Translations under genes and position numbers: made by a program
Shown: positions 1 to 59,019 of the stretch, piece after piece
Layout of the letters: each line of letters begins with the position of its first letter
Numbering within the stretch: position 1 is the stretch's first letter
The notes under the pieces: model-generated
Told to the model about the DNA's origin: nothing
The model's database searches: none
Seen by the model: only the letters and a program-made list of their open reading frames with translations
From: Chamaelirium japonicum
Taxonomy: Eukaryota > Streptophyta > Magnoliopsida > Liliales > Melanthiaceae
DNA length: 64,000 nt
NCBI GenBank assembly: GCA_947650365.1
Contig: OX393557.1
Coordinates: 34,060,241 to 34,124,240, forward strand
Direction: 5' to 3'

Positions 1-478
<478 letters not shown>

Positions 479-860
479 ATACGGGGTATAGGCTGGCGGC
501 CTATTTCGACGAAATGGGCAGCCACCCATTTGACACCCTTAGGAGTCTTAGAATGTGCTGATATTTTGTGAGCATATGCATCTTACCTTAGATAGCACAT
601 CCACAAAAAATCAGCACATTCTAAAACTTTAGAGGCATCAAATGTTATATTTCATATTAACGGTAACAACGGACGTTCGATAAAACTCTTAACATTTGAA
701 GCCCCTAGGAGTCTTAGAATGTGCTGATTTTTTGTGGGTGTTCTATCTACGATATGGTGCTTATGCTCACAAAAAATAAGCACATTCTAAAACTCCTAAG
801 GGCTTCAAATAGGTGGCTGCCTATTTCGTCAAAATGGGCTGGCAGCTCATTTCCCGTTTC

Positions 861-863
<3 letters not shown>
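479..863. mobile_element. Foldback MITE-like element E1 between TA tracts
   Basis: Terminal inverted repeats of about 65-70 bp: 496-560 pairs with 785-860 (shared words CGAAATGGGCAGCCACC and TTAGGAGTCTTAGAATGTG). The core holds two hairpins (536-638 and 695-809) separated by a ~57-bp spacer. Each hairpin arm carries GAATGTGCTGATTTTTTGTG or a close variant. The element lies between (TA)n/(GA)n tracts on both sides. No coding capacity. The superfamily cannot be set because target duplications are invisible in TA repeats; insertion in TA tracts recalls rice Micron elements. Confidence 0.75.
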
Positions 864-931
<68 letters not shown>

Positions 932-932
932 C
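864..932. repeat. (TA)n then (GA)n microsatellite
   Basis: About 30 bases of TA followed by about 40 bases of GA with one interruption. It bounds foldback element E1 on the right. Confidence 0.95.
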
Positions 933-1025
933 GTGTTACGTTGCACTGTGTGCTGCCCCGCGAGAAAGTGCGCTGCGAACTCCGGCCGTCCGATTGGCGT
1001 GGAATCGAACGGCGCAAATCGTTCC

Positions 1026-1226
1026 TACACCGGCTCAAAGGTGTAGCCGTCCGATCGGATGATCCAACAGATGGAATCCGTGGGAAACAACCGAATAGGA
1101 CAAAAGAAAATCACGTTACTGTAGCGGTACAGTAATCATGATTTTTTTTGTCCTATGCGGTTGTTTCCCACGAATCTCATCCGTTGGATCATCCGATCGG
1201 ACGAATATAGTTTTGAGCCGGTGCAG
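1026..1226. repeat. ~200-bp near-perfect inverted repeat (hairpin)
   Basis: Two arms of about 95-100 bases meet near 1126 (TTACTGTA / TACAGTAA). Paired words include CACCGGCTCAAA with TTTTGAGCCGGTG, GATCGGATGATCCAAC with GTTGGATCATCCGATC, and GTGGGAAACAACCG with CGGTTGTTTCCCAC. Non-coding foldback element or MITE. Confidence 0.8.
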
Positions 1227-1426
1227 GATGGATTTGTGCCTTTGGATTCCCATGGGAATGGATTTGTGTCGTCCGATTGGATGATTGATCCATGGGAATC
1301 CAATTGATGTTCTATCTAAGGTGGAATGATTACATCCACAAAAAATCAGCGCATTCTAAACCCTCTTGGGCATCAAATCAAAAATCGAAGGTAAAAAATA
1401 AAGGCAAAAGATATAGGGTCAGGATC

Positions 1427-1781
1427 TAGGGACACGCTAGTTTGCCACAGAGTTAGACACATAATCCAAATCGTTAGATAGAGGTTACATAATTTATTAA
1501 TTTTTTATAAGGATGATTATCTTCCCTTAGATAGCACATCCATAAAAATTCAACACATTCTAAACCCTTTAGGTTCATCAAATCTAAAATACATTATCGA
1601 TCATCCATTTTAACAGTTAAATTGAAGAGAACATTTGATCAGTCTATAGGTTTTATAATGTGTTGATTTTTTGCTAATGTGCTGAGGCAAGGTTATCACT
1701 CTCACAAAAAATCAACAAATTCTAAAACCTCTATCTAGGGTTTTAGGGATGTATGTCTAACTCTATGACACAGCAATGTGT

Positions 1782-1784
<3 letters not shown>
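1427..1784. mobile_element. Foldback MITE-like element E2
   Basis: The ends are inverted: AGGGACACGCTAG at 1427 and its counterpart ending CAATGTGTCCCTA at about 1785, both followed inward by AGAGTTAGACA (reverse complement TGTCTAACTCT). The core repeats the plan of E1 and E3: a hairpin (about 1480-1590), a spacer (about 1574-1640) and a second hairpin (1632-1734). It abuts a (TA)n tract on its right. Non-coding. Confidence 0.7.

Positions 1785-1857
<73 letters not shown>
1785..1857. repeat. (TA)n microsatellite
   Basis: About 73 bases of TA separating foldback elements E2 and E3. Confidence 0.97.
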
Positions 1858-1859
<2 letters not shown>

Positions 1860-2239
1860 GAAATGAGTTCCTATAACATGTCATAGGGAGTACCCTATGA
1901 CATGTGGTGAGTTAGTAACCCTAGAATATTTAGAATGGTTTGAATTTATATGAGGATGATCACCCTATCTTAGATAGGACCCCCGCAAAAAATCGACTCA
2001 TTCTAAAACCTCTAGAGGCATCAAATATTATTTTCAATTTAACGGTTAAAATGGATGGCCGATAAAGCTTCTAGCATTTGATGGCCCAACAAGTTTTAAA
2101 ATGCTTTGATTTTTTGTGGACATTCTATCTAAGATAAGGTGATCACCCTCAAAAAAATTCAGCACATTCTAAACATTCTAGCATTACTAATTCACCATAT
2201 GTCATAGGGTACTCCCTATGACATGTCATAGGAACCCAG

Positions 2240-2242
<3 letters not shown>
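1858..2242. mobile_element. Foldback MITE-like element E3 between TA tracts
   Basis: Terminal inverted repeats of ~65-75 bp: 1863-1925 against 2157-2237 (GAGTTCCTATAACATGTCAT versus ATGACATGTCATAGGAACCC). Each arm contains its own small palindrome, CATAGGGAGTACCCTATG. The core contains two hairpins (1919-2024, 2075-2180) and a spacer with the same layout as E1 and E2. TA microsatellites on both sides. Non-coding. Confidence 0.8.
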
Positions 2243-2335
<93 letters not shown>

Positions 2336-2352
2336 AGAGAGAGAGAGAGAGA
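2243..2352. repeat. (TA)n then (GA)n microsatellite
   Basis: About 90 bases of TA followed by about 18 bases of GA. Confidence 0.97.
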
Positions 2353-2497
2353 TGCTATAATGCGGCATACGGTAAGTGCGGCACCTCACCGCAACTGTCT
2401 GATGCGTCACTGTGTGCATGCGATGCACACAGCACGTGCATCAGACAGCTATGATGCGGTACCGCACGTACCGCATGCCGCATTATAGCATGCCCCT
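2352..2497. mobile_element. ~140-bp foldback element beside TA/GA tract
   Basis: The arms ATGCTATAATGCGGCATACG (about 2352) and its inverse ending CATGCCGCATTATAGCAT (about 2490) meet in a loop near TGCATGCGATGCACAC. Left flank is a GA tract and right flank is CCCTATATA, so the arrangement matches the other TA-flanked foldbacks here. Non-coding. Confidence 0.7.
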
Positions 2498-3111: not shown

Positions 3112-6100
3112 CTAACCGACCGGTGCCACCGCCTGCTGTTTCTCCACCATGGCAGCATGCTTCTGCCCCGCGATATGGAACTCGAACACTTTCTGGCTGT
3201 TGACCACCACGTTGCAGACGGTGCACACCTTGATCTCACCGGACGCCGCCCCTCCCTCCAGAACCCGCTGCTTCTTCAACTCCAGCTCCTCTTCCGTCGC
3301 TGGGGCTGCCGCCGCCACCCTTTTCTTCCTCTCCTCGCCCACTGCTTTGCCCTTGTCCGCGGCTGCGGTTCCTTTGTCCACAGCAGTCATCGGAACTTTC
3401 GCGGTCTTGGCGGTGATAGCCTCCTGGAGCTTCAGTAGGTTTCTCTTGTGCTTCTTCCCCTGCTTGTGGATCTTGAGAACTCCTTGGGTGTCGCAGTTAA
3501 TCTTGCAAACCTCGCAGTATGCTGACTGCACAACCTTGGTGGTACTCTTCGCATGTTTCCACAGCGCTTGTCTAGGAGCGTGATGCTTCACGTTGTTATT
3601 CCAGTAAGTAGGGTTCTGGTGTGGTTGGGCTGTTGGCTCCGGACCAGTGAAAGATCTCGGTCGAGCCTGCAGGTTGACATGTAACGATATATTGATTCGA
3701 AGAAACGAGATATTAAAATTTTCAGAATGAACAAAGAAATAACATAGTCGAAGCTCAAAAGACTCGAAACTGAGAAAAGGAGGTGACAATCAGATTCTAG
3801 GGCTAAGTACTTCAGAAAGGGCAACCAGAGCAGAATCATAGCTGGTCATGGCTGATGTTATATGCACAGAGAACAAGAAGTCATCAATTCATATTGACAC
3901 ACAAAGCACGAGAATGCGTCATTGGCCTTGAGTTGAAATAGAAGAGCAGAAAATGTACCCTCATTCCACATGGCCTATGTTTGGTAAGCGGAAATATTAA
4001 ATGTATCTCTCCCTTTATCTCTGTGTTGTATTCTCACCCGTAGGTTACCACACCCTTTGCATGGTTTAAAATTTCGGTTGGAATTCTGAAATTTCGCCAA
4101 AGTATTTCGGTTTCAGCAATACCGAAACGAAACAGGGGTCTAAAACCAACAAATTCCGACAATACCAAAACGAAACAGGAGTCCAAAACCCTGACCCATT
4201 CCAATTTCAGCAAAATTTTGGGATTTTGGTTCAATTTCGTGATGGAGGCCGAAATTGTGGGGGTTACCGAAATTTCAGATGAAACAGTGGGGGTCCACCA
4301 AACCCATGCTCATTTTGTCATTTTCAACGAGATTTCGACCGAAAGTAACGGGGCCTACCGAAACCACTGATGCCCCCCATTTCGATGCTGATTTTGACGA
4401 AGTTAACTATTTAAGGATCATTTCGATAATTCTGACCAAAACCGGCCCATAGATTTCGTGAAACCTATGGGTTGGTTTCAATGGGCTGGGATCTTTAAAT
4501 GGGGGCTGATTTCGACCAAAACCACCCAAAATTCATCGGTTTTTGCCGAACTTTATTGAGGTCTGACTAATTTGGCCGAAATTGCCGGATCTCTCAGTCG
4601 AAATCACCGATTCTCAATACCGGAATGGCCGGAATCACCAGATTTCACCAAAATTGTCGGATCTCACCAAGTTTCGGCGAAATGTCACAATTCACCGCGG
4701 ACCACATCCTCAGATCTCATCGGTTTTTGCCGGATCTCATCAGATTTCCGTCAGATTTCGTCGGATCTTGCCCCCGGATTTCTGAACATCGCCAGACCAC
4801 CAGAGTCGCTAAATTCTGTCGGTGGGTTCACTTGGATTTCGACCGATGTCGTCATCCTCACCTCACCGCCCTCCCAGGCGCAATTGCCTCCACCACCACT
4901 GTTGTTGCCAATGCAGTCGTCTCGGAAGGCATCTTTTCAACTTATGTTCTCGCCAACATCAGAGTTGTGGGATAGGTATGTACTCGTTGCTACCATTGAA
5001 GAGCGGAACGCCACTGGATGGCGTAAGTGGGACATTTTGAGTAGAGTTAATCTGTATGTGATGAGCCGTAATATTCTTTGGAATGGGATGAGGTGTAATG
5101 TTATATGGCAAGTAATGTCGTGCGCCAGGACCAGTTCCCTCTATTTTAAAAAAATATGGATGGAGATATTGTTTGACGATAGGTGTATTGATTATATGTC
5201 ATGTTATCAAGACTTAAAAGACATTAAATAAAGCGAAAATATGGAGGAAAATAGAAAGACAAGGACAAATGAGGGGAAGGGAAAGATATAGACAATTATC
5301 AAATAATGGGACGAGGTGAAGACGGTGAAGTTAAATAAAACAATGTAAATATATATATATATAACTGTATCATATATGATGATTATTAGTTTTTATTTTC
5401 TCCAATTTATTGGTATTATATCTTGGTTATCATGGTCATGCAAGCTTACTATTATTTGATATAGTTGGTATGTTTTTCAAAAATAATTCATGCAAATATG
5501 TGCAACTCAACCATAAAAGATTTAATTTTAAAAAGACTTAAAAAAAACATCCAAATATCTTTTTTTACCATTTTAAAATCTGTCACCATTTCGATCGAAA
5601 TTTTGGTTTGGGTGTTGACCGAAACCAAACAAAAAACTAAAAATTGAAACCCATGACCTTTGTAGGTTGTGTATAATGTTGGCCACAATGCCCTAATACA
5701 ATTGAGATTTGGCCTCCCGTTGTGGCTATCCTTTTAGAGTTTCATCTCCTAAGATAACATGGTATCAGAGCAAGGTTGATGTCCTAGAGTTTCAAAGTTC
5801 TCATCCCCAGCCTTAGCCTCCTCGGTCATCGCCGGCGTCGGTGACCTCGAGGAGGTCAGTAATAGTAAATATTTTTATGCGGACCTCCCTCGTGCGGAAG
5901 CCTCGTCGCTGGCATAGACCTCGTCGGTTACAGCTCATCCACCCTCGTCACCTGCCCTCGCCGAGATCGCACCTCACTCGCCCCGGTCCAGACCTTCGAC
6001 ATCGGCAACCCATCTCTCCAGAGCCTATTCTCCGGCCCAACCTCTCTGTGACAGATAATGGGGGTGGGGTTGGGGAGGGGGGGGGGGGGATTTCTTCCCC

Positions 6101-19162: not shown

Positions 19163-21315
19163 TCGGGTGTGTTTGGCATTGGTTTTGAAATTTTAGGTTT
19201 TGATTTTGGAATACCAAGAACTAGTTTTGTGCAAAATCAGTTTTAACTTATCGAAAACCAGTACTAGAATTATCAACATTTGAGCATTTGGCAATAAAAT
19301 CAGTTTTGAGCCTAAAACTAGTTTTGCAGTTATTTTTCTAAAATGTTCTCTCCAATATTTTCTCTCTAGGATATTTTCTCTTTCTACAATATTTTCTCTC
19401 CAACATTATCTCTATGATATTCTCTCTATAATATTTTCTCTTCTCACTACGTCATTTTCTATCTAAAATACTCTCCTACAATACTTTCTCTCTATAATAT
19501 TTTCTCTCTAAAATATACTCATTCTATAATATTTTCTCTCTAAAACATTAACTTGCTACAAGATTTTCTTTCTTTAAAAATATTCACTCCATAATATTTT
19601 CTCTAATATTTTCTTTGTACAATATTATTTGTCCTCTCTCTACCCCACTTTTTCTCTCTATAATATTTTCTCTTATTCAGTTTCTCTTTTAAATATTTGC
19701 TCTTTAAAATATTTTGTCTTTACAATATTTTCTCTCTAAAATATTTTTTTGTACAATATTTTTTCTTTCTCTATAATATTCTCTTTCTACAATATTTTCT
19801 CTTTACAATATTTTCTCTTTATAAAATATTTTCTTTCTATAACATTTTTTCTATCTGCAATATTTTCGATCTCTTTCAACAATATTTTTTTTCTATACCA
19901 CTTTTTCTCTATGATATTTCCTCTATATAATATTTTTTTCCTTTTATGTCATTTTCTCTCACTACAATATTTTTTCTTTCTAAAATATTCTCTCTAATAT
20001 TTTTTCTCTAAAATATTCTCTTTCTATAAAATTTTCTCTCTAAAATATCATATTCTACAATGTTTTATCTCTACAACATTTCTCTCTAAAATATTCTCTT
20101 TGTATACTATTTTCTCTCTCTAAAATATTCTTTCTATAATATTTTTTCTCTTGAATATTTTCTCTCTATAATTAATATTTTTCTCCCCTCTAAATTTCTC
20201 TCTATAATATTTCTTTTCTAAATTTTACTCTATAATATATTCTCTCTCTAAAATATTCTCTTTCTATAATATTTTATCTCTATAAAATATTCTATTTCTA
20301 CAATATTTTCTCTCTCTACAATATTTTTTTTTTTTAAAATATTATCTTTATAATATTTTCTCTCTCTAAAATATTCTCTTTCTATAATATTTTCTCTCTC
20401 TAAAATATCCTATTCCTACAAAGTTTTCGCTCTATAATATTTCTCTCTATAAAATACTCTTTTTACTATATTTTCTCTCTCTAAAATATCCTATTTCTAC
20501 AAAGTTTTCGCTCTATAACATTTCTCTCTCTAAAATATTCTCTTTTTATAATATTTTCTCTCTCTAAAATATTCTATTTCTATTATATTTTCTCTCTCTA
20601 TGATATCTTCTCTCTCTAAAATATTCTATTTCTATTATATTTTCTCTCTCTATGATATTTTCTCTCTATTATTAATATTGTTCTCCTCTCTATGTTTTTT
20701 TCTTTCTCTACAATATTTTCTATCTAAACTACTCTCTATAACATATTCTTTCTCTAAAATATTATCTTTCTATAATATTTTCTCTCTAAAATATTTTCTT
20801 TATAAAATATTTTCTCTCTCTACAATATTTTCTCTCTCTATAACACTTCCTCTGTATAATATTTTTTTATCGTCTATATTTTCTCTCACTACATATTTAT
20901 TTATTTAATAATCTATCTATATTCTTCTCTTTAGAATTTTCTCTTCCTATAATATTTTTATATATGTCATATATTTTCTCTAAAGTATTCTCTCTATAAT
21001 AATTTTCTCTCTCTACAATATGATATGTATATATTCTCCCGGTTTTAATTTTTTCTCTTTGCAATAGCTTCTCTCTACAACATATATGTTATTCACAATA
21101 ATTTCTTTTAATTATTGTTTTGCCTTCTTGACTCAAGAACCCAAAAGCAGAAAATTTCTACTTTTGGGTTTTGATGATTTTCTGGTTTTGGTTTTGGAAA
21201 ACTAATTTTCTAATCGAATCCCAAACGCACTAAAATCTTATACCAAAACCAGTTTGGTAAGCGAAACTAGTTTTGACACAAAACTAGGCCTCCAAAACCA
21301 ATGCCAAACACACCC
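19163..21315. mobile_element. Inverted-repeat element filled with TATAATATTTTCTCTC array
   Basis: Left end GGGTGTGTTTGGCATTGGTT and right end AACCAATGCCAAACACACCC are exact inverses. The outer ~170 bases on each side keep further inverted similarity (AAAACTAGTTTTG-like words). The interior (about 19335-21060) is a degenerate array of units like CTCTCTATAATATTTT. The right end is duplicated once more at 21316-21480. Phe/Ile-rich frames read from it are not genes. No target duplication could be fixed. Confidence 0.65.
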
Positions 21316-21485
21316 TTCCTTTTGAATTTTGATGATTTTCAGGTTTTGGTTTTGAAAAACCAACTTTCTAACCGGATCCCATACACACCCAAAATCTTAT
21401 TTCAAAATCAGTTTAGCAAGCGGAAGCGTCTTTGACCCAAAACAGGTGTCCAAAACCAATGCAAACCGCATCCTAAAAGAATTAC

Positions 21486-22491
21486 ATCCGCAAACTTGAA
21501 AAACTGATGATAAAAGAAAAAAAACCTAGATCAGAATCAATCTGTCCAACAATACCAGCATAGATCTCGTTCCATTAAGATGTGACCGACCACATCGCAT
21601 AAATTTCGAACACGGTTAAGACTGGTTCCGAAAACACAACCAATGCAACTGGCAAAAGACATACTTCTTTTTTTTTGAGAAATGGAACCAGACAAGCATA
21701 ACGAGAAACCTAAAAGGCCAGTTGGCAGGTAGGGGCGGATAGGGATACCCACCTTTTTTTTCTCTCCTTTTTTCCAGAAGGTTACGCAGTTTGAGCTGAT
21801 GCAACTAGGGAGCAGCCCTCCAATGCTTCCCTACACTAGGAAAGAGTCGTCGAAAAAGAACAGACAGCAACATTTGATATAGGGATTGCAATCATCTCAA
21901 GCACAAATTACATTCGCGGTGCAAAAATGAAACAACATTCTCTTAATCAATCCCTCCAACATGATATCAAGAAGATTTCAAGATCTCCAAGGTTATTGAA
22001 TCATGCATACTTGCGCTGAAGTATTATGGTTTCAGGACTCTTTACAGTCAGTTGAAAGGAAACCAAAAAGGTAGAAGAAACAATCATGCCAATAACATTT
22101 AAATTACACGAAAACTTAAAAATGATAATTGCACATAATAAACTTTCATTGCACAGGTAGAATAATGTAAGGTTCTCGACAAATATAGCCTCCTACCAGG
22201 AAAATTTCACCAGATAGGTAAGAAAGATGACCGCGAAGATATGTAAAGAATCATGCAAGTACTAAGATTTATCCATGAGATCACCGCCTTTTTATGTCCA
22301 GACACTAATTTACAGTAAAGAGTAGGACTTTCATCTTCAACCATGGATGTACAAAGGAAAATTGGAAGATTGTTCCCAACACCATCTAATGCCAAACTGC
22401 CTTCAAGATGTTTTCAGGCTATGAGCAAAGCCACATCTCACGTAAGATTAGGTTGGCAAGAAAACCAAAGAAGCTCAGAGAATCTGTATAA
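21486..22491. other. 3' flank of the ELM2/SANT gene
   Basis: No coding feature recognised. The part nearest 22491 should include the 3' UTR of the minus-strand ELM2/SANT gene. Confidence 0.4.
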
Positions 22492-24605
22492 CTAGGCGAT
22501 ACCATGACTGTCCCTTGCCCCATTCTCCCAAGACCCCTTCCCAAAAACCTCTTCGATCACATTACATGTCGGTGAGAAATCGATCTCTCTCCCTGTTCCT
22601 CGCATGTAATCAAGCTCCCATGTTCTTGGATCACAATGGCCCACAATGTACTCTTGATCGATTACAGCGCACAAGCCATCATTTCCATACTCCCCGGGTC
22701 CCACCAGGCTATCTTGTGGATCCACAAAGTCAACAGGCCGATCACAAGGGTCAAACCCCTGCAGCTGGCCCTCATACGACGTGCATGAATCGTCCTGCAC
22801 ATCTTTGTCTTCACCACCATCCTGCAAATTCTTGCCCATAGGCTGCACATTAGGAACAGATCTTGATTTATCAATGATGCATCCTTTGGACAAATCATAA
22901 AGCTCCTTGCCACCGATGGCACAATCATCTCCATTCTCATCCTCGGTATCCACTTCTGTATGGCCATTATAACAAGTAACATCATCTTGATCAGACTCAA
23001 CTACAGAATCTTCGTCGTCTTCCTCCGTCGTTGCAAACTCACCATCATCACTGTCTTGCCACTCATCATCGTCACTGTCCACATTCAATGGATCAGACCG
23101 GTTCTGTCCAGCCCTCTTCCGAAGCATGAAGACATTGAAATAGTAACTAACAAGCTCTTTGCTGCATCGGGATGGAAAGACCTGAGGCAGTTCGTCCCAG
23201 AAGTTCTTGCCCATTGATGCAGGATTGGATAAGACGACATCGAGGAACAACTGCTCCTCCTCTTCAGTCCAATTGTGCGCTACATCCTCACCCATGTCAT
23301 AGAATCCCAGCTGTATGAACCTGTCCGGACCAAGCTTCTTTCTAAGTTTCTCTCTTGCTTCCATCACATGTTCTCTCACACATCTGATGGAACCCTCATC
23401 CGGGCAGCTACATCCAATCTTATAGTTTCCAACCCTAAGCTCAAAAACCCACGATTTAAAATCAGGCTTCGACATCACACTACCTTCCATACATATAACA
23501 CTGTTATCTTCATCGATCAAATGGGGACCAGCCGGACATGTCACAGAGGTCAGAAAGGAAATACAATCGTCCGATTCCCCAAAAGGATTCTTACTACATT
23601 GTGATCTCCATCCTGGAACATCTGCTTGATGATCTGGACCAATAGCAACAGGTTTCCGAGGGCGAGGAAGGTATTCGTAAACAGGTGAATAGATCTCTTC
23701 TGGTTGATTAAATCCAGTTGTTCGGTGGTCATCTTCAAAATAACCAGGAAAAAACGATAGCCGAACAGGTGGCTCTAACCTTGTATCTTCTTCAGTTGTA
23801 CTCCGTGTGAATCCTGGCAAGCTCAAAACACTGCTGGGAGCATTTCTAGCAGGATCCTCAGAAAATGCAGCAGACTCTCCCTTCTCTAACTCCTCACTAG
23901 GGGCAACTGAAACCAATTCTACAGTATCAATTGTAAGCCTTTGCTCTCCTTGGTACTGAATATTTCTCGTCTCCACGGTAAACTAATGAATAATCTTATA
24001 CAAAAACAACAGATTTAACAATAATTACCTGAAGTAGGCGGTCCCTCAAAGATATTATTGAAGGAAGCAAATTCTGTACAAGAATCCGCTTGACTATCTT
24101 GGTCCGCTTGCCTTGTGCGCTTAACTGCAACTTCACAAAAACTGTCGTCGCTGAAAGGTCTTTTGCTACGCTCCGACCTGACAACGTCAGTAATGCTGCT
24201 TGTGGCCCATGACAAGCTGAAGGCATCACCAACGGCACTAGCAGCAGTGGCACTGGGGATGCCATCAACTTTGTTCTGAAACTCCTTATGGGTGACGACT
24301 GAGAATAGATTATCGACATCGCCTCCAAGCCTCACATTACCTCGGGATTGGCTGAAGATGCCCTCCCTTTCGACATCTTCATATCATGAAAAGGTGAGTA
24401 CAAGGACAGTTGCATCTTATTCCCTATTCACAAAAATCTCAACTTTCTTACCTGAAATTGGATGTTTCTGAGGGATATCGCTGAATGAAGAATGTTCTGC
24501 AAAGGATGCAAGTTGACCACCACAATCCAATTGTCTTTGGTGTTTATAAGAAAATTGGCAAGAGTCATCGCCCGCAAAAGGCTGTTTGTTATGCTTGAAC
24601 ACCAT
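22492..24605 (-). CDS. ELM2-like/SANT (Myb-type) chromatin protein, three exons
   Basis: Proposed exons: 24605-24452 (51 codons +1), 24376-24029, and 23948-22492 (stop at 22492-22494), about 652 residues. Introns are 75 and 80 bp, GT-AG, both phase 1; the exon 3 acceptor (ends CCAAG) is the least certain. The last exon carries an ELM2-like stretch (P-V-A-I-G-P-D-H-Q-A-D-V-P-x-W), a conserved C-S-C-P-D-E-G-S-I-R-C-V-R-E-H-V block, and a SANT domain starting W-T-E-E-E-E and ending V-S-Y-Y-F-N-V-F-M-L-R-[KR]-R, then an acidic tail. Plant proteins of this ELM2/SANT class are nuclear and linked to histone deacetylase-type repression; that role is inferred. The start MVFKHNKQPF resembles the family's N terminus. 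An acceptor-like TTGCAG just before the ATG suggests an upstream leader exon. Confidence 0.83.
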
Positions 24606-24782: not shown

Positions 24783-26060
24783 ATGACTTATTATTTTAGA
24801 CTTGTCAACGACTATTACTACAAAGCTCACAAAGGGATTAAATCGAGATTTTTCCGAACGGATGTCAATCTCAAGTCAACCGTTTCGAAATTGTGCCAAG
24901 GATCAGGAAATATGGCAATTCCGAAGAAGGGAAAGTATACATGTGATGCCGGAAAGTGGTGGCGCACATGAAAACGGGAAAGAAGATAAGCTAACAGCCT
25001 CGCAACTAGGGGAAGACAACCTACCTATCACACACCGGTAGGGTTTTAGGACTCATTCCTAGAAGCAAAGGCCTCCCACCTTCAGGGTTTGAGAGAAGAT
25101 TTCCCTTCATTCATTCAATATTGCTCTAACTGGCACTACTACAAGGGCTTAATAGCCCTACCGACTCATGGCCTAATGCAAGTTACGCAACCACCCACTA
25201 AACAAAGAAGAATTACCACCTACAAAACATATCCAGAGCACAAAAAGCCCACCAAAGTACAACAACCGAACCCATTGCTAGGAGTATTCTTCCTCTCGTC
25301 AGGGGCGTGCCTTTGGAGGGTGATGCCCAAGATCCCATCAATTCTTCCCAAGAGCATTCTTCTCTGCCTGAAGTGTGCCAACCCATTGTTTGGAGTATTC
25401 TTCCTCTCATCAGAGGCGTGCCTTTTGAGGGTGATGCCCAAGATCCCATCAATTCTTCCCAAGGAAGTTAAGGAACTCCATCAAACGTCTTGTAGGGGCC
25501 ATGGTCCAAACGTTGGCAGTTTTCAATATCAATCCTCAACTTGGGAGTCTTTTCCAGTTGGTGAGGTACTCTTCACAATCACCACCTCCCACCTTTTGGC
25601 CTCTACTTTGACATCATTTGTTGGTAAGGACGTGAAGGCATTTCATCATATTTCAACAACATGCTTAGCCTTCCCTCGGTATTTTCCCACATCGGTCGTA
25701 CTCAGAGACATCAAAACAATCTCCTTGCCATCAAAATTGAAAGTAGTGTTGGCCTCTCCGCAATGGTACACTTCGCAATCATAGATCGACCATGAAGAAA
25801 TGTGTCTCACCTTCGTAGGTATCATGTCGAACCAAATAGAATACTTATAAGATCAACAAGAAAGAGACGTGAGGCAACATTGTGTTACCGGAAATGTGGT
25901 ACTGTCTCCCTCGGCTAGTAGGTAAGGTTGAGATTCTTGAGAATACGGTCGGACGTATAATTTAAGGCGGTTGACAGTGGATGTTGATACCACGTTCATG
26001 CAACTACCCACCATCAATGACGAACTTCCCAGCTTGATCACTGCAACAAACTGATGTATT
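24783..26060 (-). pseudogene. Ty3/Gypsy gag-protease remnant
   Basis: On the minus strand a retroviral-type protease region is recognisable (around 25640-26041: G-S-C-M-N-V-V-S-T-S-T-V-N-R-L-K-L and S-L-S-C with later N-F-D-G-K-E-I-V-L-M), broken by stops and frame changes. Lower coordinates contain a ~125-bp direct tandem repeat (about 25262-25385 and 25386-25470) and then an LTR-like stretch. No reverse transcriptase or integrase, so most of the interior has been lost. Open frames on the plus strand here are antisense shadows. Confidence 0.6.
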
Positions 26061-26210
26061 AAAATAGAAGTGCGCCACCAATCTTCCTCTCAAATTGTAG
26101 CATCGGAAAAGGAGGTGACAAAGGAGACTGTTGCGACGACCGAGGCAGAGGCGATAGGGGCGGCATCAATGGAGGTAAGTTTCCTCCATATGTAAGGTAA
26201 GGTGCTTCTC

Positions 26211-26250
26211 ATAAAAAAAATCAGCACATTCTAAAACTCCTATGTGAATC
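26211..26250. repeat. Isolated arm of the E1-E3 hairpin module
   Basis: Contains AAAAAATCAGCACATTCTAA followed by AACTCCTATGTGAATCAAAT, matching the right arm of the hairpin modules at 1-2.2 kb. No partner arm is visible nearby. Confidence 0.6.
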
Positions 26251-26579
26251 AAATGAGGTAAATGCTCAAGAAGATGGAATTAACACGAATCAAAACAAAA
26301 GTTGCCAATATAAGCAAGAATCAATACATCAAAATCATCGTATCACCATTTCCATGAAAGTCTATTTCATTTGAAACATGACTCTCCCTATCAGAATCAC
26401 CACAAACTTTAGCATCTTCAAGTGTATGTGGTTATGTGATTCTTCCTCCTCTTTGCCTTCGCCTTTCATTGTTTCCACTGGCCTCAACAACAAAATATAA
26501 TGTTAAACAATCATCAAGAAGACGGTCCATGAGTGGCCGCATTTTCCCAATAAAAAGCTAACTCGAAAAACCAAAAAAA

Positions 26580-26715
26580 CTACCCAGGTGACCAGGTGCT
26601 CAAGCGGTCTAGGCGGCCGCCTAGGAAACACCGCTCGTCTAGGGGCACCTAGGCACTACAAAATGTACCAGCCTAGGTGGCACCTAGGCGGCACCTTGAC
26701 TACACTGATCATATC
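26580..26715. repeat. CCTAGGCGGC-type word array
   Basis: A short stretch of GCCTAGG/CACCTAGGC words, similar in style to 10690-10790 (GCGCCTAGGCGC). Probably a decayed hAT-like element; no target duplication found. Confidence 0.35.
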
Positions 26716-43509: not shown

Positions 43510-43572
<63 letters not shown>

Positions 43573-53308: not shown

Positions 53309-54751
53309 TTAGGCGACAGCAGGCATGTCCTTGAGCCAACCATCCAGCGGCTTGCCGATCGAGTACACGATGAACCCAATCCCCCTCAGCCTGTCGGCGT
53401 CCACGACATTGCGCCCGTCAAATATGAACGCCGGCTTCTGCATGTTATCGTAGATCCTCTGGTAGTCCAGCGCCTTGAACTCGTCCCACTCGGTCAGGAT
53501 GCACACCCCGTGCGCCCCCTTCGTCGCCTCGTACGCGTCCCACGTCACCGTCACCTGCTTCACCGCCGTCGGGCTCATCGGCTGGAGGTGGATCGGGTGG
53601 TCCCAGTCGAACTTGTTCATCGCCAGGTCCCGCCCGATCTGGTCCTCCGTCACCTGGGGGTCGTAGATGCTGATCTTCGCCTTGTCGCCCAGGAGGCCCT
53701 TGCAGACGTCGATCGCGGGGGTCTCCCTCGTGTCCCCCGTGTCCTTCTTGAAGGCGAACCCGAGCACCGCCACCTTCTTCCCGGACACGGTGTTGAACAT
53801 GGAGGACACCACCCGGTTCACGAACCGGCTCTTCTGGTAGTCGTTGATCTTGATCACCTGCTTCCAGTAGTTGGCCACCTCCGGGAGGCCGTTGCACTCG
53901 CAGATGTAGACCAGGTTGAGGATGTCCTTCTGGAAGCAGGACCCTCCGAACCCGACACTGGCATTCAGGAACCTGGGGCCGATCCTCGAGTCCTTCCCCA
54001 CCGCGTAGGCCACCTCCGTCACATCGGCTCCGGTGGCCTCGCAGAGCGCGGATATGGCATTGACCGACGAGATCCTCTGCGCCAAGAAGGCATTGGCCGC
54101 GAGCTTGGAGAGCTCGGCGGACCAAAGATTCGTCGTTATGATGCGGCCCTCGGGAACCCAATGGGCGTACACCTCCTTCAGTGTTTGGACCGCCTTTCGT
54201 CCCTCCGGAGTCTCCCGCCCGCCGATGAGCACCCGGTCAGGCGCGAACAGATCCTGGATCGCCGTGCCCTCCGCGAGGAACTCCGGGTTCGACAGGATCT
54301 GGAAGTTGATCCCTTTGCTGTTGTGGGTCAGGATCTTCTCGATCGCCTCGGCGGTCTTGACCGGCACGGTGGATTTCTCGACCACGATCTTGTCGGACTT
54401 GGCGACGTCGGCGATCATGCGAGCGGCGCTCTCCCAGTAGGTGAGGTCGGCGGCCTTGCCCGCTCCGAGGCCGCAGGTCTTGGTCGGCGTGTTCACGGAG
54501 ACGAAGATGATGTCCGCCTCCGAGACATGCTCCTCGACGTCGGTGCTGAAGAAGAGGTTCCTACCTCGGCACTGCTTGACCACGTCGTCGAGGCCCGGCT
54601 CGTAGATGGGAAGCTGCTCGCTGTTCCACGCCGTGATGCGGGAGACGGAGATGTCGACGACCACCACTTGGATGCCGGGGCATTTGAGGGCGATCACCGC
54701 CATGGTCGGGCCCCCGACATAGCCGGCTCCGATGCAGCAGATCTTCACCAT
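53309..54751 (-). CDS. UGD: UDP-glucose 6-dehydrogenase
   Basis: One uninterrupted 480-codon exon, the full length of plant UGDs. The enzyme oxidises UDP-glucose twice with NAD+ to UDP-glucuronate in the cytosol, the precursor of UDP-xylose, arabinose and galacturonate for cell-wall polymers. Visible features: N-terminal Rossmann motif G-A-G-Y-V-G-G (residues 8-14), S-N-P-E-F-L-A-E-G (154-162, catalytic Glu161), S-K-L-A-A-N-A-F (215-222, Lys216 and Asn220), G-G-S-C-F-Q-K-D with nucleophile Cys272 and Asp276, and [14 protein letters not shown] (331-344) of the UDP-binding domain. The start gives the standard [15 protein letters not shown] terminus. Third positions are strongly G/C, unlike the surrounding DNA. 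A long open frame on the opposite strand is a by-product of that bias. Confidence 0.98.
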
Positions 54752-58180: not shown

Positions 58181-58191
58181 TATATATATAT

Positions 58192-58402
58192 GGGGAGGGA
58201 TACTCTCACTAATGGCCTCTTACTAATGGCCCTTACTAATAATCTGGACCGTTCAATCAAAATTGAGGGAGGGCTGAGATCAACCCTCCCTCTCTCTATC
58301 TCTTTCTCTCTCCATCAAACAACCCAGACCCCGACCCTCCCGACCCCGACCCCTCCGGCTCTGGCTCCGGCAGCCCCCGACCCCTCCTCCGGCAGCCCCC
58401 CG

Positions 58403-58436
<34 letters not shown>

Positions 58437-58929
58437 TTCCCCTCCAAGTCCGGCAGTCCCCCCGATCTCCCCGACCGGAGCCCCCCGCAGCCCCGGCCGC
58501 CGCTCCGCAGCCCCAACCGCCGCTCTGCGCCCCCCGCAGCCCCGGCAGTCGCTCCGCGCCCCACGCCGGCCAGCCGCTCCGCTCCGCGCCCTCCGCTCTG
58601 TTCCCCGCGCCGGTGCCGGAGGGGATCGGGCTGCCGGGGCCGAAGGGGGGTTGCTCGTCGCGCACTACGTCGCGCCGGTGCCGGAGGGGGGGTCGCCCGT
58701 CGCGCCCTGCGCCGCGTCGGTGCCGGAGGGAGGGTCGGGGGGCTGCCAGAGCCGGAGCCGGAGGGGTCGAGGTCGGGGTCGGGGAGGATCGGGGTCTGGG
58801 TTGTTTGATGGAGAGAGAGAAAGAGATAGAGAGAGGGAGGGTTGATCTCAGCCCTCCCTCAATTTTGATTGAACGGTCATGATTATTTGTAAGGGCCATT
58901 AGTAAGAGGCCATTAGTGAGAGTATCCCT

Positions 58930-58931
<2 letters not shown>
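58192..58931. mobile_element. 740-bp foldback element inserted in (TA)n
   Basis: Arms of about 200 bp: 58192-58395 and 58730-58931 pair almost fully (GGGATACTCTCACTAATGGC versus GCCATTAGTGAGAGTATCCC; GAGGGAGGGCTGAGATCAAC versus GTTGATCTCAGCCCTCCCTC). It is flanked by TA tracts: 58181-58191 on the left and 58932-59019 on the right. The centre is very GC-rich with a 33-bp C run (58404-58436) and CCGGTGCCGGAGGGG repeats. Frames read from it are low-complexity. Confidence 0.88.
58404..58436. repeat. 33-bp poly(C) tract
   Basis: The longest homopolymer run in the window, near the middle of the TA-flanked foldback. Confidence 0.93.

Positions 58932-59019
<88 letters not shown>
58932..59019. repeat. 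(TA)n microsatellite
   Basis: About 88 bases of TA on the right of the 740-bp foldback. Confidence 0.97.

Follow-up and report, generated by a model that had tools for sequence, protein, structure and literature searches.

The first 2.5 kb of the window (the whole stretch of 64,000 bases that was analysed) form an array of short foldback sequences linked by (TA)n microsatellites. Three complete elements in it, E1, E2 and E3, have a common core of about 260 bp, inverted in E2, between symmetric outer modules that differ from element to element. The array is probably composed of non-autonomous Mutator-like foldbacks of the SaTar/mt-MITE type, and E1, E2 and E3 probably descend from a shared ancestor whose ends were replaced by exchange.

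Layout of the array and comparison with known systems

Seven modules of three different families follow one another in the order F1-E1-F2-E0-E2-E3-P, and none of them interrupts another in the annotation. The microsatellites and the modules outside the three complete elements are located as follows.

1-310, plus strand: F1, right half of a foldback of the second family, its left part lying outside the window
311-456, no strand: (TA)73 microsatellite, then (GA)10 at 457-476
864-930, no strand: (TA)15 (864-893) then (GA)n, the interval from E1 to F2
931-1307, plus strand: F2, foldback of the second family, arms 1001-1123/1128-1250, left terminus present
1308-1385, plus strand: E0, a fourth, truncated core copy that is fused to F2 and placed 5' of E2 without a TA tract
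1785-1857, no strand: (TA)36 between E2 and E3
2243-2332, no strand: (TA)45, then (GA)9 at 2335-2352
2352-2496, plus strand: P, third small palindromic element, arms 2352-2405/2438-2491 (85%)

The first-pass annotation had located the complete elements correctly to within a few bases (E1 at 479-863, E2 at about 1429-1784, E3 at 1858-2242). They measure 356-385 bp (E1 and E3 385 bp each) and are small TIR elements without coding capacity; a 166-aa ORF at 61-561 crosses the TA repeats, and the frame 16-558 gave no Pfam match. The microsatellite flanks typical of SaTar-type elements were found on both sides of E1 and E3, with (GA)10 separating the left TA tract from E1, and on the right side only of E2. 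After three of the four (TA)n tracts, at the starts of E1, F2 and P, (GA)n follows. Two junctions, F2/E0 and E0/E2, are devoid of a TA tract, and since there is none at the left of E2 they look like deletion fusions, as described for SaTar clusters (PMC5907723).

F1 and F2 can be assigned to one family because the right end of F1 pairs with the left end of F2 (242-310 with 928-994, 79.7%) and the start of F1 matches the centre of F2 (p 0.002, 500 shuffles). The right terminus of F1 reads GAGGAGTGTTACGTTGC inward from 310. No inverted match for the right terminus of F2 was found in 1250-1430 (p 0.63), and an 11-base direct match from this search (p 0.014) belongs to the internal repeats. E0 scores 62, 64 and 55 with E1, E2 and E3, in the best orientation each, with shuffle maxima of 24-26. 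Besides the complete copies, which lie in microsatellite, the only core matches in the window are E0 and a fragment at 26189-26259, both without recognisable ends. The latter is a solitary piece amounting to a quarter of the core; it scores 65 with E1 and lies outside any microsatellite, with no inverted repeat around it in 25900-26600. A (TA)29 tract at 43512-43569, where none of the seven modules matches, is a possible empty target.

Judged by the published descriptions, this layout is that of SaTar elements, pineapple Ac-mMITEs and MuTAnT. SaTar elements of guayule, rice, sorghum and citrus are small TIR elements flanked by (TA)n, and their linear arrays consist of unrelated modules joined by microsatellite, none interrupted and some fused by deletion (PMC5907723). 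Such arrays are pictured as repeated insertions of non-autonomous Mutator-like elements into (TA)n, and TA tracts are longer at occupied than at empty sites (PMC5907723, PMC4486113). The SaTar authors also proposed circular intermediates that recombine into microsatellites, a model which they themselves labelled speculative (PMC5907723). The present array resembles theirs in its (TA)n-flanked, non-nested arrangement, and E1 and E3 (385 bp) are close to rSaTar2, which is Micron, and rSaTar3 (both 380 bp; PMC5907723) in size. One core under different outer TIRs is not described in the accessible text on SaTar (PMC5907723). Ac-mMITE-1 and -2 (mt-MITEs) of pineapple likewise insert into (TA)n, frequently form non-nested clusters and carry GA/TC tracts at their ends, as in this array, and the terminal (GA)n has been attributed to slippage (PMC8449440). 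They differ in sharing the distal TIR while size and TIR length vary, rather the reverse of E1-E3 (PMC8449440). MuTAnT of Medicago truncatula is a (TA)n-targeted, hairpin-forming foldback of 292 bp with four similar segments and GGGG termini (PMC4486113); it is like E1-E3 in targeting, foldback structure and hairpin, and its termini resemble the GGG near their ends. In contrast to E1-E3, it is one family with two subfamilies, and no end exchange is reported in the accessible text (PMC4486113).

Because no target duplication of 9-11 bp was seen, the Mutator class of E1-E3 is a putative assignment made by analogy with these systems; the outer flanks of the elements are microsatellite, and no target duplication was present at the core borders. 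A MULE domain was not detected in Pfam at E 0.001 among the 63 stop-to-stop frames of at least 115 aa in the window, and a partner transposase inside the window was rejected on the basis of the same frames. Known microsatellite-targeted MULE-MITE arrays account for most of what is strange at the locus. The earlier view that ordinary MITE families do not behave in this manner was not supported, as modular (TA)n arrays, foldback segments and the exchange of ends in Galileo have already been published.

The shared core and the outer modules

The three complete elements are divided as follows.

479-534, plus strand: E1 left outer module, itself palindromic (GGCTGGCGGCC...GGGCAGCC), 79% identity to E1 right
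535-801, plus strand: E1 core (hairpin 1, spacer, hairpin 2); the E3 alignment covers 548-791, outer edges placed by symmetry
802-863, plus strand: E1 right outer module, GGGAAATGAGCTG from 855 reading inward
1429-1484, minus strand: E2 left outer module, GGGACAC...AGAGTTAGACA, 79% identity to E2 right
1485-1742, minus strand: E2 core, inverted relative to E1 and E3
1743-1784, minus strand: E2 right outer module
1858-1916, plus strand: E3 left outer module, begins GGGAAATGAG, palindromic stretch CCTATAACATGTCATAGGGAGTACCCTATGACATG, 92% identity to E3 right
1917-2178, plus strand: E3 core, 75.9% identity to E1 over 245 columns
2179-2242, plus strand: E3 right outer module

Pairwise identity of the cores ranges from 70.5 to 75.9%. 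The local score of E1 with E3 is 197 (shuffle maximum 29), that of the E2 reverse complement with E3 is 162 (73.5% over 249 columns; maximum 28) and that of E1 with the E2 reverse complement is 128 (70.5% over 234 columns; maximum 30), each against 200 dinucleotide shuffles. The unreversed E2 sequence scored 88 with E3 and 96 with E1. The hairpin-spacer-hairpin layout proposed earlier for all three elements was thus confirmed by core scores far above shuffles, but not in a uniform orientation, since core and spacer of E2 are inverted. The base of the hairpin, where a word like ACCCT(T)AG occurs, marks the start of the alignable part, and each core consists of two hairpins around an asymmetric spacer. 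Left and right hairpins are identical at 76/88 (86%), 63/84 (75%) and 70/89 (79%) aligned positions in E1, E2 and E3, respectively, and corresponding hairpins of different elements at 73-79%. The words CATTTGA (693) and TCAAATG (638) on the spacer side of E1 lie inside the core, while a second such pair (527, 805) falls at or just beyond its edge. A literature search with words of the core sequence gave no match.

The inverted arms of E1 (445-628/710-893, 82%) take in part of the microsatellite flanks; those of E3 extend over 1864-2026/2076-2238 (83%), and E2 pairs end to end with its own reverse complement (67.6% over 377 columns). Folding of the copies, which the first-pass annotation had suggested as a check, gave one long hairpin per whole element, with -226.9, -111.0 and -201.2 kcal/mol for E1, E2 and E3 and z-scores of -24, -9 and -23 (100 dinucleotide shuffles each). 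Folds of this stability would also be expected of a host MIRNA-like small-RNA hairpin locus, and a permissive Rfam search over positions 1-2600, which gave 35 matches up to E 1, placed MIR8562 (83.2 bits, E 9e-15) as well as MIR862 (54.5 bits, E 2e-10) on E1, in both orientations. These scores remain below the gathering cut-offs of 211 and 100 bits, respectively, a long hairpin is able to score from structure alone, and the elements are bounded by microsatellites and belong to a mixed array, so that such a locus in place of transposons is very improbable. Sub-threshold Rfam matches fell mostly on hairpins or TA tracts. A known structured RNA or miRNA was rejected, with 0 matches at gathering score in 64,000 bases.

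The outer modules (42-68 bp overall; left/right 56/62 in E1, 56/42 in E2, 59/64 in E3) are well matched within each element: left and right are identical at 44/56 (79%), 38/48 (79%) and 54/59 (92%) positions in E1, E2 and E3, counting aligned positions only and excluding gaps. Comparison of different elements gave, as the best of four local scores, 10 for E1/E2, 20 for E1/E3 and 16 for E2/E3, values attained by shuffles in 100, 3 and 18% of 500 runs, the 95% point being 18 for every pair. Homologues simulated with 26% substitutions and 6% indels, assuming that outer modules and core evolve at an equal rate, averaged 47, 48 and 40 and came down to the observed score or lower in 0, 0.6 and 0.6% of 500 runs (P 0.006 or less). 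The outer inverted repeats therefore differ among the elements, as had been noticed at first sight, and homology of the whole elements including their ends is argued against by the score windows and the simulation. As the observed scores are well below those of simulated homologues, simple divergence would not account for the subterminal parts, provided that these evolve as the core does.

Some likeness between the ends was nevertheless observed. GGG occurs no more than 8 bases from each of the six ends: directly at the border of E2 left and right and E3 left and right (at E2 left by placement of the border, as there is no TA tract), and in E1 at distances of 4 and 8 bases from the ends, behind GAGGATAC/GAGGAAAC. 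E1 right and E3 left have GGGAAATGAG in common (p 0.006, 20,000 shuffles, uncorrected for 55 pairs), to which the slight excess of the E1/E3 score over shuffles (P 0.03) is owed. E1 right also has 12/13 bases of GGGAAATG-GCTG in common with an internal place of F1 (p 0.001, 20,000 shuffles, uncorrected). When the outer ends were compared in 55 pairs under two scorings, p < 0.05 was reached, beyond five pairs within an element or family, by E1 right/E3 left, E1 right/F1 right, P right/E0 right and E1 left/E3 right, the last with p 0.008 under the looser scoring; these four would correspond to about some chance matches plus the GGGAAATG word.

Such traces, the GGG motifs included, are what would be left if E1-E3 were ancient members of a single family in which the outer parts change more rapidly than the hairpins, until the similarity has faded. 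This explanation appears improbable, because the outer modules retain 79-92% left-right identity inside the elements and are therefore not fast-decaying, and because the observed scores stay far from those simulated. The extreme ends of the elements may be homologous and the replacement limited to the subterminal part; the cleavage end could, on one reading, have been kept while the subterminal module changed.

Replacement of the end modules

Since a common core carries non-homologous subterminal modules, some kind of module replacement can be assumed. The first-pass annotation had left the choice between module shuffling and successive nested capture, and the data speak more for the former, as direct repeats beyond chance were not found at the core borders. 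In a nested capture the core would be a separate palindromic MITE inserted centrally into three different (TA)n-targeted palindromes, whose halves are now the outer modules. The core boundary does coincide roughly with the hairpin base in each of the three elements, and, folded separately, five outer modules reach -13.8 to -24.9 kcal/mol and the sixth, E2 left, only -3.9. In E3, the one element for which the comparison was made, the outer halves show a higher left-right identity (54/59) than the hairpins (70/89), as if differently aged (Fisher p 0.04), and nested insertions or rearrangements occur in 20/218 copies of MuTAnT (PMC4486113). However, the direct repeats at the core borders of E1, E2 and E3 were not above chance (p 0.74, 1.0 and 0.40, 300 shuffles each), so that the target duplications expected of an independently inserted MITE were not seen at any of the three borders. 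Three insertions near the exact centre would also be needed, as the outer lengths indicate, and the accessible texts on the SaTar (PMC5907723) and pineapple (PMC8449440) arrays report no nesting. Nested capture is consequently regarded as unlikely. The missing duplication at the core borders slightly favours recombination; duplications could have decayed at about 20% divergence.

The exchange of ends, which we favour, would have proceeded as follows. Non-autonomous foldback Mutator-like mini-elements would have inserted successively into a (TA)n microsatellite, each mobilised in trans by a transposase recognising its ends. From one hairpin-spacer-hairpin ancestor, E1, E2 and E3 would have arisen by replacement of the subterminal modules on both sides of the core, most likely via ectopic recombination, gene conversion or template switching in which other foldback elements were the partners; a new module would be acquired at one end, and conversion within the foldback would match the second end to it. 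Both the transposition in trans and the manner of exchange are what we infer from the modules. The same hairpin middle with different end pieces suggests that ends may have been exchanged, and one core with three end pairs makes a credible case of module exchange, based on a small sample of three complete copies at one locus.

Precedents for parts of this process exist in two groups. In Galileo, a Drosophila element of the P superfamily, copies occur with both TIRs of one subfamily and the centre of another, explained by ectopic recombination or gene conversion between copies (PMC3573991). These chimeras are foldback-like and have a foreign centre between matching TIRs, as do E1-E3, but superfamily and host are different, and the exchanged TIRs are 77% alike (PMC3573991) while E1-E3 share a decamer at most. 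MULEs with multiple TIRs, known with both ends affected from tomato and Arabidopsis and not from rice or maize, carry external and internal inverted-repeat modules at both ends; their origin has been discussed in terms of recombination or of a nested insertion whose duplication was lost (PMC3310237). They resemble E1-E3 in the stacking of such modules and differ in that their tandem TIRs are copies of each other (PMC3310237), whereas the outer and inner modules of E1-E3 are unrelated. No report of end-swapping in (TA)n-targeted MITEs was found in the accessible parts of the open-access literature.

One core with three end pairs would be a natural record of end-swapping, and such an array would connect the stacking of MULEs in microsatellites with the exchange of ends known from foldbacks. 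If the pairing of core and ends proved fixed or nested in the genome, the locus would be an ordinary SaTar-type array. To our knowledge, the survival of non-autonomous MITEs beyond their transposases is an open question. Because microsatellite arrays place unrelated foldbacks side by side, neighbours might exchange end modules by recombination or template switching; more speculatively, and with little likelihood at present, the core could be a chassis that repeatedly changes its transposase-recognition ends through such exchange and so shifts its lineage between mobilising transposases.

Other features of the window

Another (TA)-flanked element is located at 58185-59019, with a short TA run at its left and (TA)44 at its right. 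Its inverted repeats of 119 bp (58194-58312/58813-58931, 97%), with ends like GGGAGGGATACTCTCACTAATGG, enclose 500 bp of GC-rich, repetitive sequence, and the Pfam scans of its frames reported no domain. In appearance it resembles a Pack-MULE-type element, and a young age is suggested by the identity of its TIRs.

A G-poor tandem array of 1.6 kb at 19354-21012, with about 101 copies of the 16-bp unit AATATTTTCTCTCTAT (65% matches), is accompanied by a strong negative GC skew at 20001-22000. On the minus strand, a Myb/SANT-like ORF is found at 22492-23976 and a conserved, full-length UDP-glucose 6-dehydrogenase (UGDH) ORF at 53309-54751. In searches of a protein database clustered at 90%, the Myb-like ORF was closest to palms (54-55%, Phoenix 55%; best 120 of 971 matches), and the UGDH ORF showed 93% identity to Colocasia, 92% to Spirodela and 86-90% to grasses (best 120 of 7994 matches). 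Taken together, these identities point to a monocot that is not clearly a grass and has no close named relative among the matches. The two ORFs match Taro_038302 and Taro_038300 of taro, respectively, which are listed on contigs of equal length, and gene order may be conserved. A C2H2 zinc-finger (zf-met) ORF lies at 3112-3789 on the minus strand, its 3' end about 600 bp from the foldback array, and among 43 ORFs of the window remnants of copia-type retrotransposons were recognised by the domains RVT_3, Pol_BBD and Retrotran_gag_2, in one ORF each.
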